Of a stretch of 64,000 nucleotides of DNA, positions 6,148-21,136 are shown piece after piece. The notes beneath the pieces were generated by a model that saw only the letters and a program-made list of their open reading frames with translations, searched no databases and was not told where the DNA came from. Positions within the stretch are counted from its first letter, which is position 1. Every line of letters starts with the position of its first letter. Origin of the DNA: Roseimicrobium gellanilyticum (GTDB lineage: Bacteria; Verrucomicrobiota; Verrucomicrobiia; Verrucomicrobiales; Verrucomicrobiaceae). The stretch lies in contig NZ_QNRR01000005.1 of the NCBI RefSeq assembly GCF_003315205.1, forward strand, positions 248,001 through 312,000. Direction: 5' to 3'. The position numbers and the translations under genes are program-made.

Positions 6148-8457
6148 ATGTCCTCCTCCACGAAGTCCACCCAACCCAGCCTGTTTGAACCACAGGATGG
6201 CGGCGCTGTGCTGGAGCGGGAGAGCGACCAGCCGCGCATCGCTCGTGTGCTGGTGGAAGAGACCGCGCTGGAGCTTGACTACATCATTCCGGAAGAGCTC
6301 GCGCATCGCGTGCATCTCGGCTCACGCGTGCATGTGCCGTTGCAGGGAAGGCGGGCCATCGCCGTGGTGGTGCAATTGCTCAACGACTCACCTCATGCAG
6401 GCAGGCTGCGTCCCATTGCAGACACCATTGGCACCAAGGCGATGTTCCCCGAGAACCTGCTGAAGCTCGCGAAGTGGTTGAGCGCGTACTACCTCTGCCC
6501 GCTGCGGCAGGTGCTGCGTACCATGCTGCCCGAGGCGGTGCGTTCGCGACCGGAGAGTTTCCTTTCTGACAGCCACATCTCACTCGTGAAGATGCCGGAT
6601 ACGGACGAACTGGAGAAGCTGCGCAAGGCCGCGCCTATCCAGGTACGCATCCTGGAAACCATCCAGGCGAACGGCGGTGAATCCACGCTGAGCATGCTGC
6701 GCAAGGAACTGCCGCGGGCCACGCAGGTGATTCACGTGCTGGTGAAGAAGGGGCTCGTCACGCGCAGTGAAGTGCGCGTGGAGCGTGACCCGTTTCAAGA
6801 AGAGGAGTTCATGCCTTCCGCGCCGCTCACGCTCACGGAAGAGCAGAGCGCCGTGTACGCCCGCGTGCTCCAGGCGCTGGAGAGGCCCGCCGATAGCCCT
6901 CCGATGCTCGTCTTCGGCGTGACGGGCAGCGGCAAGACGGAGATCTACCTGCAGGCCATCGGTCGGGTGCTGGAGAAGAACAAAACCGCGCTTGTGCTGG
7001 TGCCGGAGATCAGCCTCACGCCGCAGACCATCGAACGCTTCAAGTCACGCTTCTCCGAGCGAAAGCAGCGCATCGCTGTTTTGCACAGCCATCTCTCCGA
7101 GGGTGAGCGTCACGATGAGTGGTTCAAGATTCACGAGGAGCGCGCGGACATCGTCATCGGCGCGCGCAGCGCCATCTTTGCGCCGCTGGAGAATGTGGGC
7201 CTCATCATCGTGGATGAGGAACATGAGCCCAGCTACAAGCAGGATGAGAATCCGCGCTACCACGCGCGTGATCTCGCCGTGGTGCGTGCGAAGATGGAAG
7301 GCTGCCCCGTGATTCTCGGCAGTGCCACGCCGAGTCTGGAGTCCTTCGAGAATGCGAAGAGCGGGAAGTACGAACTCCTGCGCATGAACAAGCGCACTGA
7401 CGGCAAATCCTTGCCGCTCATCCGCATCGTGGACATGCGCCTGGAGAAGCGCCGCACGAAGGACGGCTTCAGCATCTTGAGTGAGAAGCTGCGCCTCGCT
7501 GTGCAGGCAAGATTGGAGCGTGGTGAGCAGTCCATCCTCTTCCTCAACCGGCGCGGCTTCAATACCGCGCTTTCCTGCATGAAGTGCGGCGTGACCTGTG
7601 TCTGCCCGGATTGCTCCGTGGCCATGACCTTTCACAAGAGCGATACCAAGCTCATCTGCCATGTGTGCGGCATGCGGAAGCTGCCACCACGCAAGTGTGA
7701 GTCGTGCGGGGATCCTTCACTGAGCTTTGCAGGCTTCGGCACCGAGCGCGCGGAAGAGACCATTCGCAAGGTGTTCCCACAGGCGCGCCTTGCCCGTGTG
7801 GATACGGACACCATGCAGCGGAAGAATCAGCTCCGCGATACGCTACGCCTCTTCCGCAGTCAGAAGCTCGATATCCTCATCGGCACGCAGATGATCGCCA
7901 AGGGGCTCGACTTCCCCAACGTCACACTCGTAGGCGTGCTCAATGCGGACCTTGCGCTGAACCTCCCCGACTACCGCGCTGCCGAGCGCACCTTCCAGCT
8001 TCTCACCCAGGTGGCAGGTCGTGCCGGGCGCGGGGAGCGGCAAGGTGAGGTCTTCATCCAGACGTACACGCCGCACAGCCCGGCGATTCAGTTTTCACGT
8101 CACACGGACTTCGATGGCTTTGCCGAGCAGGAACTGGAGCAGCGCCAGCAGTGGCACTACCCGCCCTATCTCCATACCGTATTGATTGGCTCACGGGGCA
8201 AGGAAGCGGCGCATGCGGAGTTCAGCCTGCAGACGCTCGCATCTCGGCTGCAGAAAGAGGCACCACCGGATCTCATCATGGGTGAGCCCTGTCCTTCACC
8301 GCTCGCCAAGGCGCACGGGCAGTTCCGTTTTCAGCTCCTGCTGCGCGCGGAGAAAATTCGTCCGCTGGTCATGCACCTGCAGAAGGTGCTCGCAGGCATG
8401 ACCTTCCCGGAGGGCGTCATCGTGACGTGGGATGTGGATGCGATGTCGCTGATGTGA
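6148..8457 (+). CDS. priA: Primosomal replication protein N' (PriA helicase)
   Basis: A 769-aa 3'-5' DNA helicase that recognises stalled forks and reloads the replisome. N-terminal 3'BD and winged-helix regions occupy about residues 30-220. Walker A is GVTGSGKT at 257-264 and Walker B is DEEH at 356-359. A zinc-binding cluster follows with Cys pairs at 477/480, 486/489, 504/507 and 517/520. The helicase C lobe has GTQMIAKGLDFP and QVAGRAGRGER. All key residues are present and the length is close to E. coli PriA (732 aa). Stands alone between the divergent propeller gene and an inverted-repeat element. Confidence 0.97.
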   Translation: MSSSTKSTQPSLFEPQDGGAVLERESDQPRIARVLVEETALELDYIIPEELAHRVHLGSRVHVPLQGRRAIAVVVQLLNDSPHAGRLRPIADTIGTKAMFPENLLKLAKWLSAYYLCPLRQVLRTMLPEAVRSRPESFLSDSHISLVKMPDTDELEKLRKAAPIQVRILETIQANGGESTLSMLRKELPRATQVIHVLVKKGLVTRSEVRVERDPFQEEEFMPSAPLTLTEEQSAVYARVLQALERPADSPPMLVFGVTGSGKTEIYLQAIGRVLEKNKTALVLVPEISLTPQTIERFKSRFSERKQRIAVLHSHLSEGERHDEWFKIHEERADIVIGARSAIFAPLENVGLIIVDEEHEPSYKQDENPRYHARDLAVVRAKMEGCPVILGSATPSLESFENAKSGKYELLRMNKRTDGKSLPLIRIVDMRLEKRRTKDGFSILSEKLRLAVQARLERGEQSILFLNRRGFNTALSCMKCGVTCVCPDCSVAMTFHKSDTKLICHVCGMRKLPPRKCESCGDPSLSFAGFGTERAEETIRKVFPQARLARVDTDTMQRKNQLRDTLRLFRSQKLDILIGTQMIAKGLDFPNVTLVGVLNADLALNLPDYRAAERTFQLLTQVAGRAGRGERQGEVFIQTYTPHSPAIQFSRHTDFDGFAEQELEQRQQWHYPPYLHTVLIGSRGKEAAHAEFSLQTLASRLQKEAPPDLIMGEPCPSPLAKAHGQFRFQLLLRAEKIRPLVMHLQKVLAGMTFPEGVIVTWDVDAMSLM

Positions 8458-8486
8458 TGATGTCAGGGGTGCGGCAGTGATTTTTT

Positions 8487-8627
8487 AGCCGCAAAAAGAC
8501 GCAAAAAACACAAAAGGTTTCTGAGCGGAGCCAAGGTGAAGAGCACGTGTTAAAGCATTGAGGTGTATCATCAGCATGCCGTGTCGCATGCTGATACCTC
8601 CGGTACCTTTTGCGTTTCTTTGCGGCT
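8487..8627. repeat. MITE-like element with inverted terminal arms
   Basis: An A-rich left arm at 8487-8517 begins AGCCGCAAAAAGACGCAAA. The right arm at 8606-8627 is its imperfect inverse (TTTGCGGCT end). Inside is a second stem, GTATCATCAGCATG (about 8566-8579) pairing with CATGCTGATAC (8588-8598). The whole 141 bp folds on itself and sits between the convergent priA and response-regulator genes. No reading frame is convincing. It could be a dispersed non-coding repeat and may also act as a bidirectional terminator. Confidence 0.6.
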
Positions 8628-8646
8628 ATCCTTTCCCGTTGCTTTG

Positions 8647-10143
8647 CTACGAAGCCTTTCGCGTCTTCGCTGCCTTGGGGTCCGCAGCTTTTGCGCCGGC
8701 ACCCGCTGCCACAGGAACTGGCACAGGCTTGGTTTCGGTCTTGGCCTGGGAGAGGTCTTCTTCAGACACGCCGAGCAGGCCGGCGGCGTCCTCGGAGTTT
8801 TGTCCACTGGCACGCAGGGCGGCTTTCTTCAGTTCGCGTTCCACCCAGGGCATGAGCTCGAATCCCGGCAACTGTTGAGCGCCATGGATGAGGGTCTGCA
8901 GGGCGTCCTGCATGCGGGTCAGTGTGTGGATGGGAGTGACGACGCGCTGGGTGTTGCTGCCGAGCGGGATGTCCGCGGGGAGCAGCACGTCGGCATTGCA
9001 CAGGGCGCAGGCGCGCTGGAGGGTGTTCTCCAGTTCACGCACGTTGCCGGGCCAGTCATAGGCTTCGAGGAGGGCGAGGGCGTCCTCGGAGAAACGCATC
9101 TGAGGGGTGCGCTTGCGGGCAGCCATGCGCTGCAGGAAGAACTCGGCAAGGATACGCACATCCTCGCGACGCTCACGGAGTGGCGGGATGTGGATGCGCA
9201 CTACATTCAGGCGGTAGAAAAGGTCTTCGCGGAATTTGCCCTCGGTCACTTCCTTTTCGAGGTCCTTGTTCGTGGCGGCGAGCACGCGGACATCCGTCTT
9301 CAGGGTGGTGTTGCCACCCACACGGCTGAGCTCCCCTTCTTGCAGCACGCGGAGCAGCTTGCTCTGCACGGTCAGGGGCATGTCGCCAATTTCATCCAGG
9401 AAGAGGGTGCCACCGTCGCACTGTTCAAAGCGGCCCATGCGCTGGGCCACGGCACCGGTGAAGGCGCCTTTCTCGTGGCCGAAGAGCTCGCTCTCCAGCA
9501 GGTTGTCCGGGATGGCCGTCACGTTGATGGCCACAAACTCCTTCTGCGTGCGCGGGCTGAACTTGTGAATGGCGCGGGCGACGAGTTCCTTGCCGCAACC
9601 GCTCTCACCGGTGATCATCACGGCAGCGTCACTGCGGGACACACGGCCGATGAGCTTGAAGACCTCCTGCATGGCACCGCTGCGGCCAATGATGGTCTCC
9701 TGGATGCTCTCCGCCGAAACGGGCGAGGCGCTGGCCAGCGTGGTGCGACGGGCCTCCACGGTACGGAGGGCGCTCTCCACGATGGAACGGAGGTCATACG
9801 GCATCTGTTCCTTCCGCAGGAAGTCATAGGCGCCGAGACGCATGGATTCGATCACCGCGCTGGTGCCAGCCAGACCACTAAATAAAAGGACCATGGCGTT
9901 CGGGTCCTGTTGGCGGAGGCGCTTGAGCAGCTCGATGCCGCTCATCTGGGGCAGCCTGGCCTCGGTCAGCACGAGGTCGGCGCGTTGCTTCATGTAGGCC
10001 GCCAGCGCATCCTCGGCGCGTTCGAAGGTCTCAATAGTCACGTCCGGAGCCTTCAGGTGGGTGGCGGCCCAACCCGAAAAATCCGTCTCCGAATCCACGA
10101 TGATGATTCGCGTGGATGCGGCGCTGGGGTCTTTTTGCTGCAT
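8647..10143 (-). CDS. Sigma-54-dependent activator with atypical receiver
   Basis: A 498-aa NtrC-class protein. The receiver domain (about 12-125) has a Glu at position 61 (LVLTEARLP) where family members carry the phosphorylated Asp; Ser89 and Lys111 of the switch set are present. The AAA+ domain has Walker A GESGCGKE (179-186), the sigma-54 contact loop GAFTGA (226-231), Walker B FLDE (250-251) and WPGNVREL. The C-terminus aligns with a Fis-type helix-turn-helix (about 432-468), but the recognition helix reads [11 protein letters not shown], acidic rather than basic. A Lys/Ala/Pro-rich tail follows. It should still drive sigma-54 open-complex formation; phosphorylation control and DNA binding are doubtful. 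No histidine kinase is adjacent. Confidence 0.92.
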
Positions 10144-18619: not shown

Positions 18620-21136
18620 ATGGAGCTCGAGTCCTGGACAGCGCAGACCATTCCTGAGTGTTTTGAGAAGGTCCTGGTACGCAATCCGGAGGCACCGGCT
18701 GTGGTCTCTGGCGGGCGCACCGTCACCTATGGGGAACTTGCCAGGGAAGTCGCGCTGCTGGCGGACGCTCTTTTGAGCGAGGGTGTCGTGCCAGGTGATC
18801 GCGTGGCCCTGCTCCTCCCAGATGACATACCTTTGATCGTCGGGTGGCTGGGAGTGCTGAAGGCAGGCGCGGTGTGTGTGCCCCTCTCTGTGGAGCATCC
18901 TGAGGAGCGTTTGCGCTCCATCGTGTCAGATGCGGAACCCAAGACGCTGGTGACCCACGGTGCCCTGCTGGATCTGGCGCGACGTGTCCGTGGTGAAAGG
19001 GGATCCATTGTGAATCTCGACAGGTTGCCTGCGCCACGGAATCAAGTGGCTGAACGCCTCGCAATCACATCCGAGAGTTATGCCTACCTTCTCTATACCT
19101 CCGGCACTACGGGCAGGCCGAAGGGCGTGATCCAGACGCACCGCAACCTGCTGAAGAATGTCCATGCCTTTTCGGAATTGATGGACATTAGCTCAGAAGA
19201 TCGGCTGGTGGGACTTACCGCTTTCAGCATGGGGCAGGGGGTGGCCACGATGTTTGTCTCGCTGCTCAATGGCGCTACACTATACCCATACAACCTGAGG
19301 CTGGCAGGATTGGCGTCACTGACGCCATGGTTGGAGCAGGAGCGTATCTCCATCTACACGTCCTCCGTTACGCTCTTCCGGCAGTTCGCCGGATGCGTAC
19401 AAGCCGGCGTTTCATTTCCTCACCTGCGGATCATCCGTCTCGGCACGGAGGAACTGCGTCTTGCGGATGTGGAACTCTTCAAGAGTCGATTTCCTCGAGG
19501 GTGTGTCCTGCTGAATTGTCTCGGTTCCACGGAGACATTCAACTACGCCAGATTTCGCATTGACCATGACACGCTGATTTCTGACAAGGCGGTGCCGGTG
19601 GGCCTTCCTCCCGAGGGGACCACTCTCAGCATTCTCAATGAAGAAGGCAATGAGTGCCGGGAAGGTGAAGTCGGCGAAATCGTTGCGTATAGCGCTTATC
19701 TCTCGCCCGGATACTGGCGTGATGATGCGTTGACTGCGGATCGCTTTCGTGGGGAAGGGAAGGGGCGCTCTTATCGCACAGGCGACACAGGCCGACGTTT
19801 GCCGGATGGCTCCATCGCGTTTGCAGGAAGGTTGGATCATCAGGTGAAGATTCGAGGCAACCGTATCGAGCTGGGAGAGGTGGAGCATGCGCTCACCAAT
19901 CAGCCCGGAGTGGCGGGTGCGGCTGTCATAGCCCATCAAGATGGGGGCGCTGAGATGGCATTGATGGCGCACGTGGTCACCCAACTCCCCGAGTGGGAGA
20001 TTCGTGCATATCTCAGGAGCCGTCTGCCAGACTTCATGATGCCGTCGGTGGTGAGGACCATCGATGCACTGCCCTTGACTCCCAGTGGAAAGGTGGATCG
20101 TGAAGCTCTCCGCAGGCAAAAAGTCTTCGTAGAGAACAAAACCGCCTTTCCTGAAGAAGGACTGCTCAGTGAATGGGAGATGGCAATGGCAGCGTGCTGG
20201 TCGCGCGTGCTGGGAGGGTACGTCCCGGGCCTTCATGATGAATTCATGATGGTGGGAGGAGATTCCTTGAAAGCACTGCGATTGTTCGCGGAGATCCGGG
20301 CTTCGATGGGAGTCATGTTTGACTCGAGCGATGTCTCGGAGGCCTTCACGGTGGCTTCCATGGCAAGAACCGCTGAGACGAGGACGGAGGCTCCACAGGT
20401 AACAAGAGCACCGCTGGTGTTGGAGTGGAATGCCGACTGGAACTTCCTCGTCCGTGTTCAGGCCGGCGATGAGGCGCATCCCATCATCATCGTCCCTGGG
20501 GGATGGGGTGATGAGACTGAAATACTGCTGCTGGCTGGAGTTGTCAGCGCATTGCAAACCAGTCGCGCCATTTACGCGGTGCGCTCACGGGCGATGGATG
20601 ACGATTGGCCTGTGGCGGGCTCCCTGAGTGATCATGCCGCAGCGGTGCTGCAGGAACTGAGGCCGGTGATCGCGGAAAAGAAATGGACCCTCATCGGCGA
20701 GTGTGTGGCTTCGGCTGTGGCCATGGAAGTAGCCTGTCAGGCGGAGGCGCAGGGATTTGCTCCGGAGGCTGTGACCATGCTCGATCCCCTCACTCCTCCT
20801 CGCTCTCCATGGATCGAGGGTATCGAAGGCAAACGCATGGAGGTACCCGAAAGCGAGCAGATCAAGAATGCTCCGGACAAGGTCCGGAACTACTACCGGC
20901 TGATGAGGAACTCCCCGGTCGGTCGCATCCGGAGTGATCTCCAGGTCATTCTCGCATCGGACGCGAAAAACTCCGACCATGCACTGGAGTACTGGGGACA
21001 GTGCACGGGTGGCCAGCTCCATCTCCGCGCGGTGAGGGGTACCCACGAGTCCTATCTCCGTAGCGACGGCGCTGAGACGGCCACTCTGCTGAACCAGCAC
21101 TTGTTTGGGGAAAAGAACCACGCGGTGCGTGCCTGA
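18620..21136 (+). CDS. A-PCP-TE monomodular synthetase (NRPS-like)
   Basis: An 838-aa enzyme with three domains and no condensation domain. Adenylation (about 10-500): A3 LLYTSGTTGRPKG (157-169), A5 LGSTE (301-305), A7 YRTGD (385-389), A8 GRLDHQVKIRGNRIELGEVE, A10 Lys491. The position that holds the amino-group-binding Asp in amino-acid-activating domains reads FSMGQG, with Gly205, which points to a substrate lacking an alpha-amine. Carrier domain: GGDSL with phosphopantetheine Ser549. Type I thioesterase: the elbow GECVAS puts Cys695 where Ser normally sits; Asp722 and His809 can complete the triad. A-T-TE enzymes of this layout dimerise aryl-keto acids in fungi and Ralstonia (ralfuranone); product here is unknown. 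No tailoring genes, exporter or phosphopantetheinyl transferase is adjacent. Confidence 0.88.
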   Translation: MELESWTAQTIPECFEKVLVRNPEAPAVVSGGRTVTYGELAREVALLADALLSEGVVPGDRVALLLPDDIPLIVGWLGVLKAGAVCVPLSVEHPEERLRSIVSDAEPKTLVTHGALLDLARRVRGERGSIVNLDRLPAPRNQVAERLAITSESYAYLLYTSGTTGRPKGVIQTHRNLLKNVHAFSELMDISSEDRLVGLTAFSMGQGVATMFVSLLNGATLYPYNLRLAGLASLTPWLEQERISIYTSSVTLFRQFAGCVQAGVSFPHLRIIRLGTEELRLADVELFKSRFPRGCVLLNCLGSTETFNYARFRIDHDTLISDKAVPVGLPPEGTTLSILNEEGNECREGEVGEIVAYSAYLSPGYWRDDALTADRFRGEGKGRSYRTGDTGRRLPDGSIAFAGRLDHQVKIRGNRIELGEVEHALTNQPGVAGAAVIAHQDGGAEMALMAHVVTQLPEWEIRAYLRSRLPDFMMPSVVRTIDALPLTPSGKVDREALRRQKVFVENKTAFPEEGLLSEWEMAMAACWSRVLGGYVPGLHDEFMMVGGDSLKALRLFAEIRASMGVMFDSSDVSEAFTVASMARTAETRTEAPQVTRAPLVLEWNADWNFLVRVQAGDEAHPIIIVPGGWGDETEILLLAGVVSALQTSRAIYAVRSRAMDDDWPVAGSLSDHAAAVLQELRPVIAEKKWTLIGECVASAVAMEVACQAEAQGFAPEAVTMLDPLTPPRSPWIEGIEGKRMEVPESEQIKNAPDKVRNYYRLMRNSPVGRIRSDLQVILASDAKNSDHALEYWGQCTGGQLHLRAVRGTHESYLRSDGAETATLLNQHLFGEKNHAVRA

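Follow-up and report, generated by a model that had tools for sequence, protein, structure and literature searches.

The window analysed here, a 64,000-nucleotide stretch of the Roseimicrobium gellanilyticum genome, encodes an NRPS-like protein with an adenylation (A), a peptidyl carrier (PCP or T) and a thioesterase (TE) domain, the last of which carries a cysteine at the place usually held by the nucleophilic serine. This raises the question as to what the cysteine signifies: an unusual release chemistry, such as the β-lactone or β-lactam formation of ObiF and SulM, or an ordinary hydrolysis in which it simply stands in for serine. The features of the gene are collected in Table 1. By Pfam the protein displays an A-T-TE order with no condensation (C) domain; its AMP-binding domain is recovered with an E-value of 1.1e-64, and the TE lies barely above the curated cut-off of the Thioesterase family (PF00975: 27.2 bits, cut-off 26.4).

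Table 1. Features of the A-PCP-TE gene, in positions of the window.
Feature	Position	Strand	Basis
A-PCP-TE (NRPS-like) gene	18620..21136	+	Single open frame, 838 aa (translation, Pfam)
Adenylation domain core, AMP-binding, residues 15-366	18662..19717	+	Pfam and alignment
AMP-binding C-terminal subdomain (AMP-binding_C), residues 420-491	19877..20092	+	Pfam
Peptidyl carrier protein (PP-binding) domain, residues 524-583, attachment motif GGDSL	20189..20368	+	Pfam
Carrier Ser549	20264-20266	+	In GGDSL; invariant across five aligned rows
Thioesterase domain, GEC clade, about residues 606-838	20435..21133	+	Pfam, AF2 model, tree
Nucleophile elbow GECVAS (within LIGECVAS)	20696..20713	+	Translation, AF2 model
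Cys695, codon TGT	20702-20704	+	Translation
Asp722, codon GAT, predicted position I triad acid, family-invariant	20783-20785	+	Translation, alignments, AF2 model
Asp781, closest residue to ObiF/SulM position II; as Asp not conserved	20960-20962	+	Alignments, model
His809, codon CAC, predicted triad His, family-invariant	21044-21046	+	Translation, alignments, AF2 model

The earlier note on this locus had placed Cys695 (TGT, 20702) of the elbow GECVAS at the usual Ser place, with Asp722 and His809 available to it. Translation, alignments and an AlphaFold2 (AF2) model confirm the former, and phmmer, a family profile and the AF2 model agree on the register of the latter. The HMM alignment that the note had proposed puts Cys695 on the Ser column, Asp722 on the Asp and His809 on the His; the proposed structure prediction likewise holds all three in triad register, and neither alignment nor model has another Ser filling the nucleophile place, the finding that the note had named as its refutation. 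At the level of single pairs the similarity is weak: phmmer aligns the domain to the surfactin TE (1jmk) with an E-value of 0.02, Cys695 falling on the Ser of GYSAGC, Asp722 on the Asp and His809 on the His of GTH, columns which we take to be the catalytic residues of that enzyme. A six-member family profile repeats this register against 7crn, AB3403 and NocB with E-values of 9e-21 to 2e-12. In the AF2 model (residues 601-838; mean pLDDT 81.6, with residues 732-741 and 832-838 below 50), strands 690-694 and 717-721 lead directly into Cys695 and Asp722, respectively, and the last strand, 800-805, precedes His809. Nearly all of the best 50 structure entries matched by the model are NRPS, PKS or FAS thioesterases, with Foldseek E-values down to 8e-14 against NRPS/PKS thioesterases; 7crn gives a VIA Z of 22.5 (rmsd 2.6, 205 aligned), and ObiF1 appears at rank 40 (VIA Z 19.0). 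The domain has the α/β-hydrolase fold of type I thioesterases, with the triad C-terminal to the PCP. The occurrence of this fold in the model, AB3403, ObiF and others carries no information on function.

The relatives of the domain define a distinct group, which we term the GEC clade after its elbow. A PCP-TE search of 57 genomes, the own genome included, returned a match in 14 at E <= 0.001: the nearest share the elbow and the remainder are ordinary thioesterases or carrier domains. Altogether, 8 distinct Verrucomicrobiota domains (G018 and Verrucomicrobium sp. BvORR106 being counted as one genome) have in common the Glu-Cys elbow, the triad Asp and His and a signature reading PGGxxxExE. The members are 23-36% identical to the window domain and have the following elbows: GECVAS (window); GECNAV, GECLAG and GECQAG (BvORR106); GECQAS (G006); GECGSG (G001); GECIAG (L037); AECIAS (L038). 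Glu precedes Cys in every one, and Asn follows it only in L035. The PGG and both Glu of the signature, the Glu-Cys pair, Asp722, Trp792, Gly807, His809, Tyr812 and Arg814 do not vary in any of the alignments. The presence of Cys, Asp and His in all 8 distinct members shows that the Cys is maintained and is no lesion, which rules out a pseudo-active site or a sequencing slip. An inactive A-T-TE0 protein was also considered: PacP of the pacidamycin pathway is an A-T-TE tridomain protein like that of the window, but its TE lacks a typical triad, whereas the window TE retains a full one in register (PMC8748450). Hence, by alignment and model, the window domain looks like a catalytically competent Cys-thioesterase of a lineage-specific clade.

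In a tree of 52 thioesterase rows all 8 GEC rows group on a single branch with support 100/99; the branch recurs in 100% of the 200 bootstrap trees, in a bootstrap that had not fully settled. The rows outside the clade were picked by profile similarity and PF00975 score, and are therefore no random sample; among them 24 Ser rows (one with Gly) and 20 other Cys rows intermingle, and among the rows seen only the GEC clade combines Glu before the Cys with the lack of the usual Gly-Gly. The GYC/GWC thioesterases of Verrucomicrobiota resemble the window domain in having Cys at the Ser place; however, Gly-Gly or Gly-Ala comes next in them and they lie outside the clade. Profile scores draw the same line: the six members used to build the profile score 290-309 bits (high by construction), the two outside it 185 and 169, a remnant about 133-134, and every other thioesterase matched in these scans at most 73. 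The remnant, a 142-aa stretch of GEC thioesterase without the elbow (G012 C1:851272-851679; L044/L015), matches the end of the L035 domain of BvORR106 almost exactly and is likely, from its sequence, to represent a decayed cluster.

Of 68 family genomes, 7 pass 1e-10 with the six-row profile: G000, G001, G006 and G018 score 297-312 bits, G012 passes with its remnant (133 bits), and G060 and G062 give weak matches (57 and 44 bits) with Ser elbows. Among 387 genomes across the phylum, 7 pass 1e-15, with the GEC kind only in G000 and G006 and the other 5 scoring at most 67.4 bits. A scan of named genomes with one short motif recovered 5 loci, all labelled Verrucomicrobiota (BvORR106 contributing three, and a MAG labelled Akkermansia muciniphila and a Spartobacteria MAG one each); the first scan of named genome contigs found no relatives beyond the phylum. 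Against plasmid records, the TE alone gives partial matches in 4, and the whole protein matches 192 at 1e-60, all below 60% identity; the latter mostly reflect the A domain, and the TE elbows under the best full-length matches (5 of the 192 records), which serve as a small control outside the phylum, all have Ser (GWSLGG, GWSYGG, GWSVGG, GYSAGS, GWSYGG). We found no description of this clade in the open-licence papers searched.

The analogy to β-lactone- and β-lactam-forming enzymes drawn in the earlier note stands for the nucleophile and fails for the triad acid. ObiF1 and SulM, like the window protein, have a Cys nucleophile in a TE following a PCP. However, their catalytic Asp comes after strand 7, at position II (ObiF Cys1146/Asp1254/His1284; SulM Cys2818/Asp2926/His2956; PMC6668435, PMC11298585), whereas in the AF2 model Asp722 follows strand 6, which is position I, the ordinary arrangement. 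Taken alone, the modelled window protein could offer an acid for the other geometry, as Asp781 follows strand 774-779 near position II. Across the family this residue is not kept: the position II column (window, L036, L039, L035, L037, L038, G006, G001) reads D, E, E, G, E, D, E, G. Two of the 8 members (window and L038) thus have Asp there, four have Glu and two Gly, which makes 6 of 8 acidic, as against Asp at position I in all 8. Judging from the model and this conservation, the triad acid of the window TE lies at position I, and the enzyme does not use the ObiF/SulM triad geometry. The Gln-Cys-Asn motif of SulM is also absent, Glu-Cys-Val being found instead, and the 43 PDB sequences matched by the family profile at E <= 0.001 do not include ObiF. 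Moreover, ObiF1 and SulM are described as acting on amino-acid chains with a β-OH or β-sulfamate (PMC6668435, PMC11298585), and the window A domain lacks the Asp that holds the α-amino group (Asp235), so that a substrate of the ObiF type is unlikely. We therefore regard β-lactone or β-lactam formation, for which the Cys nucleophile and Asp781 speak, as very improbable here.

A closer parallel is provided by AB3403 of Acinetobacter baumannii (PDB 4zxh), third among those 43 sequences. Its TE aligns with the window domain (profile E 2e-13; VIA Z 21.3, rmsd 3.0, 219 aligned) with Cys in the nucleophile column (GWCFGG) and with the Asp and His in register, and like the window it has the Asp at position I (PMC11298585). 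It differs in being a four-domain protein, in having Gly-Gly after the Cys and in that the PGGxxxExE signature does not align. Among the other NRPS TE structures compared in the SulM paper of 2024, AB3403 alone has Cys, in its case with a position I Asp, and its function is given as unknown (PMC11298585). The window enzyme thus offers a compact single-protein test case for the effect of replacing Ser by Cys with the triad Asp in its ordinary place.

How far the Cys by itself speaks for special chemistry depends on how common it is. A PF00975 match at 1e-10 was present in 32 of 240 genomes, and for 30 of the 32 one locus each was read: the nucleophile is Cys at 15, Ser at 14 and Gly at 1. Because 8 of the 15 Cys loci stem from two genera, the figure weakens when recounted by genus (9 Cys, 14 Ser and 1 Gly among 24), which leaves our weighing of the readings as it was. 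Four of the Ser loci, L096 among them, are short frames of about 300 aa. The single Gly (GFGFGA in L121, a 1092-aa frame) belongs to a thioesterase that is perhaps inactive, going by this residue. On the 52-row tree Cys and Ser have swapped 8 times, with at least 2 of the changes forced by well-supported branches. Cys at the nucleophile place is not rare in the phylum; with 15 of 30 loci (9 of 24 genera) carrying it, a Cys-TE should not be taken as the mark of a β-lactone or β-lactam pathway in genome mining. These repeated swaps mean that the Cys need not imply special chemistry, and together with the Asp in its usual position I they speak for an ordinary hydrolytic release, in which Cys merely replaces Ser and the enzyme frees an acid, perhaps modified on the carrier. 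Yet loading and then hydrolysing an unmodified acid would waste ATP, and no tailoring enzyme lies beside the gene among the frames scanned; we hold this reading to be rather unlikely, though a serious rival. The suggestion of the earlier note that release may be something other than plain hydrolysis is accepted as a possibility.

The A domain presents a second peculiarity, one that bears on the substrate. Mapped on GrsA (PheA reference), its code over positions 235-331 reads G Q A T R G C N Y and its GPTE motif is GSTE. None of the five separate A-PCP-TE proteins has Asp at 235 (where they read G, T, I, G, G) or retains the proline of GPTE (replaced by S, A, S, S, M), and Arg299 and Asn330 are common to four A domains, those of the window, L039, G006 and L060, a locus elsewhere in the own genome. 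Comparable losses have been described: α-hydroxy A domains have Gly or Ala at 235, and the α-keto A domain StsA has Ile at 235 and Met for the usual Pro (reviewed in PMC11253843). The absence of both Asp235 and the Pro therefore points to an α-keto, α-hydroxy or other non-α-amino acid. As McyG activates Phe with Val at 235 (PMC11253843), the loss of Asp235 is in itself no proof of a non-amino substrate; nevertheless, on these signatures the window A domain is likely to activate a non-α-amino acid. The fungal non-reducing NRPS-like synthetases of aromatic keto acids show the same A-T-TE order without a C domain (PMC9047271; compared by description only), and their substrates suggest that they too would have A domains lacking the α-amino-binding Asp, the trait observed in the window. 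The TE clade as a whole is not tied to a single substrate class, as L037 (in the A domain adjoining the TE) and L038, two of the seven A domains in cis, keep Asp235 and GPTE. By Pfam, the L035 TE protein has no A domain.

Taken together, we consider it probable, at somewhat better than even, that the window encodes a type I Cys695-Asp722-His809 thioesterase in an A-PCP-TE protein, with the Cys fixed in its clade, which transfers or condenses a non-amino acyl group via an acyl-Cys intermediate. The sequence itself shows how the domains are ordered, the Ser of the carrier, the triad register, the conservation within the family and an A domain with neither Asp235 nor the GPTE proline. The A domain would activate a non-α-amino carboxylic acid, most likely α-keto or α-hydroxy, and load the PCP; Cys695 would then receive the acyl group by thioester exchange, and the His/Asp pair would help a nucleophile to release it. 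The partner in condensation or transfer could be a second acyl group, a hydroxyl or an amine, comparable to the coupling of two keto acids by NRPS-like A-T-TE enzymes. Moving the acyl group onto Cys is an energy-neutral step that can shield it from solvolysis, as argued for the Cys of ObiF (PMC6668435); for these reasons acyl transfer or condensation would be likelier than plain hydrolysis.

A different fate of the acyl-Cys would be its passage to another carrier, as in an acyl shuttle of the kind of the CmaE-type aminoacyl transferases or LgnA. The type II thioesterase LgnA is described as moving Thr between carriers via an acyl-enzyme, alongside CmaE and its homologues (PMC8748450), and other carrier-bearing proteins are present in the own genome. 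However, the nucleophile of LgnA is Ser, we saw no known shuttle fused to an A-PCP and the nearest folds are terminal thioesterases, which leaves such a shuttle decidedly unlikely.

The domain settings of the relatives bear on whether the enzyme works alone. The GEC TE occurs in A-PCP-TE proteins in the window, L036, L039, G006 and G001 (the order in G006 and G001 being taken from alignment to the window protein, and the L039 TE being under the Pfam threshold of 1e-5). Elsewhere it ends larger proteins: C-A-MT-PCP-C-A-PCP-TE in L037; a formyltransferase-A-PCP-TE protein with ~400 aa without assignment ahead of the A domain in L038 (4302-8693); and a KS-aminotransferase-C-PCP-TE protein with two carrier stretches in L035 (2832-8687), which we presume to be akin to a mycosubtilin-type PKS/NRPS joint. 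In BvORR106 a frame encoding a C-A-PCP-C protein overlaps the following A-PCP-TE frame (L036), so that at least one member seems to terminate an ordinary assembly line.

The latter arrangement invites the possibility that the window protein is a trans-acting termination module, which takes chains from NRPS proteins ending in C and extends them by the final unit before releasing them. The own genome has 5 condensation domains in 4 proteins: a C-A-PCP-C protein at C5:382-387k, about 113 kb from the window gene; a lone C protein after PKS domains at C7:139k; a PCP-C protein preceded by a P450 and an A protein with a DIP2-like end at C1:262-267 kb (L092 4382-9239); and a methyltransferase-like-A-PCP-C protein at C1:1019.8-1023.8 kb (L060 5830-9762), whose N-terminal ~250 aa are methyltransferase-like by our reading of the sequence and give no match in Pfam. 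For three of these, which end in C, no following A-PCP was found. Of the A-domain proteins at other loci of the own genome, that of L060 scores highest (36% identical); like the window protein it has neither Asp235 nor the GPTE Pro, and it carries R299/N330 as well. Of the three PF00975 matches in the own genome, only the window TE is in an NRPS frame, the others being in 284- and 311-aa frames. Against these points, the C-ending proteins are encoded at loci unlinked to the window gene, and G006 (99% complete) carries an A-PCP-TE protein with 0 condensation domains found. A terminating role in trans is hence conceivable, if on the unlikely side. As G006 has the enzyme and no condensation domain was found there, the A-PCP-TE protein can probably act alone. 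The L092 row is followed by a lipid A acyltransferase/heptosyltransferase fusion and represents a small unlinked NRPS cluster. The own genome further has three matches to the 4'-phosphopantetheinyl transferase superfamily, one of them 36 kb upstream.

Among the frames scanned, a part of those in the window (sulfatase, BD-FAE hydrolase, YifB, two ABC exporters, aspartokinase and others), there is no biosynthetic gene and no recognizable tailoring or partner gene beside the A-PCP-TE gene, which counts against the leading reading. YifB is 93% identical in the same-genus genome G001, and the other 10 window proteins tested are absent at E <= 1e-10 from the 12 kb preceding and the 4.4 kb following it; the same 10 are likewise absent from the 12-13 kb stretches at YifB in G012, G006 and G018. 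The enzyme is therefore no core gene of that place.

More tentatively, the GEC clade as a whole might be a separate Cys-TE lineage for joining or transferring non-amino acyl groups via acyl-Cys and a position I triad, in which one A-PCP-TE protein by itself converts keto or hydroxy acids into a small product, whether a lactone, an ester or a C-C condensate, a proposal that we hold doubtful. If true, paralogues of isopropylmalate/homocitrate synthase or isopropylmalate dehydrogenase could supply the acid in L039 and G006, respectively. In L039 the GEC A-PCP-TE gene is adjoined by one for a divergent isopropylmalate/homocitrate synthase-like protein (7814-9451, minus strand), which has an N-terminal extension of ~100 aa and is under the curated cut-off of all 19 listed families. 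As a general partner this synthase was rejected: an orthologue at 1e-60 occurs in 1 of the 68 family genomes, its own. In G006, convergent to the GEC A-PCP-TE gene, a divergent isopropylmalate dehydrogenase-like gene is followed by one for an isochorismatase-aldehyde dehydrogenase fusion (L058 4144-8237).
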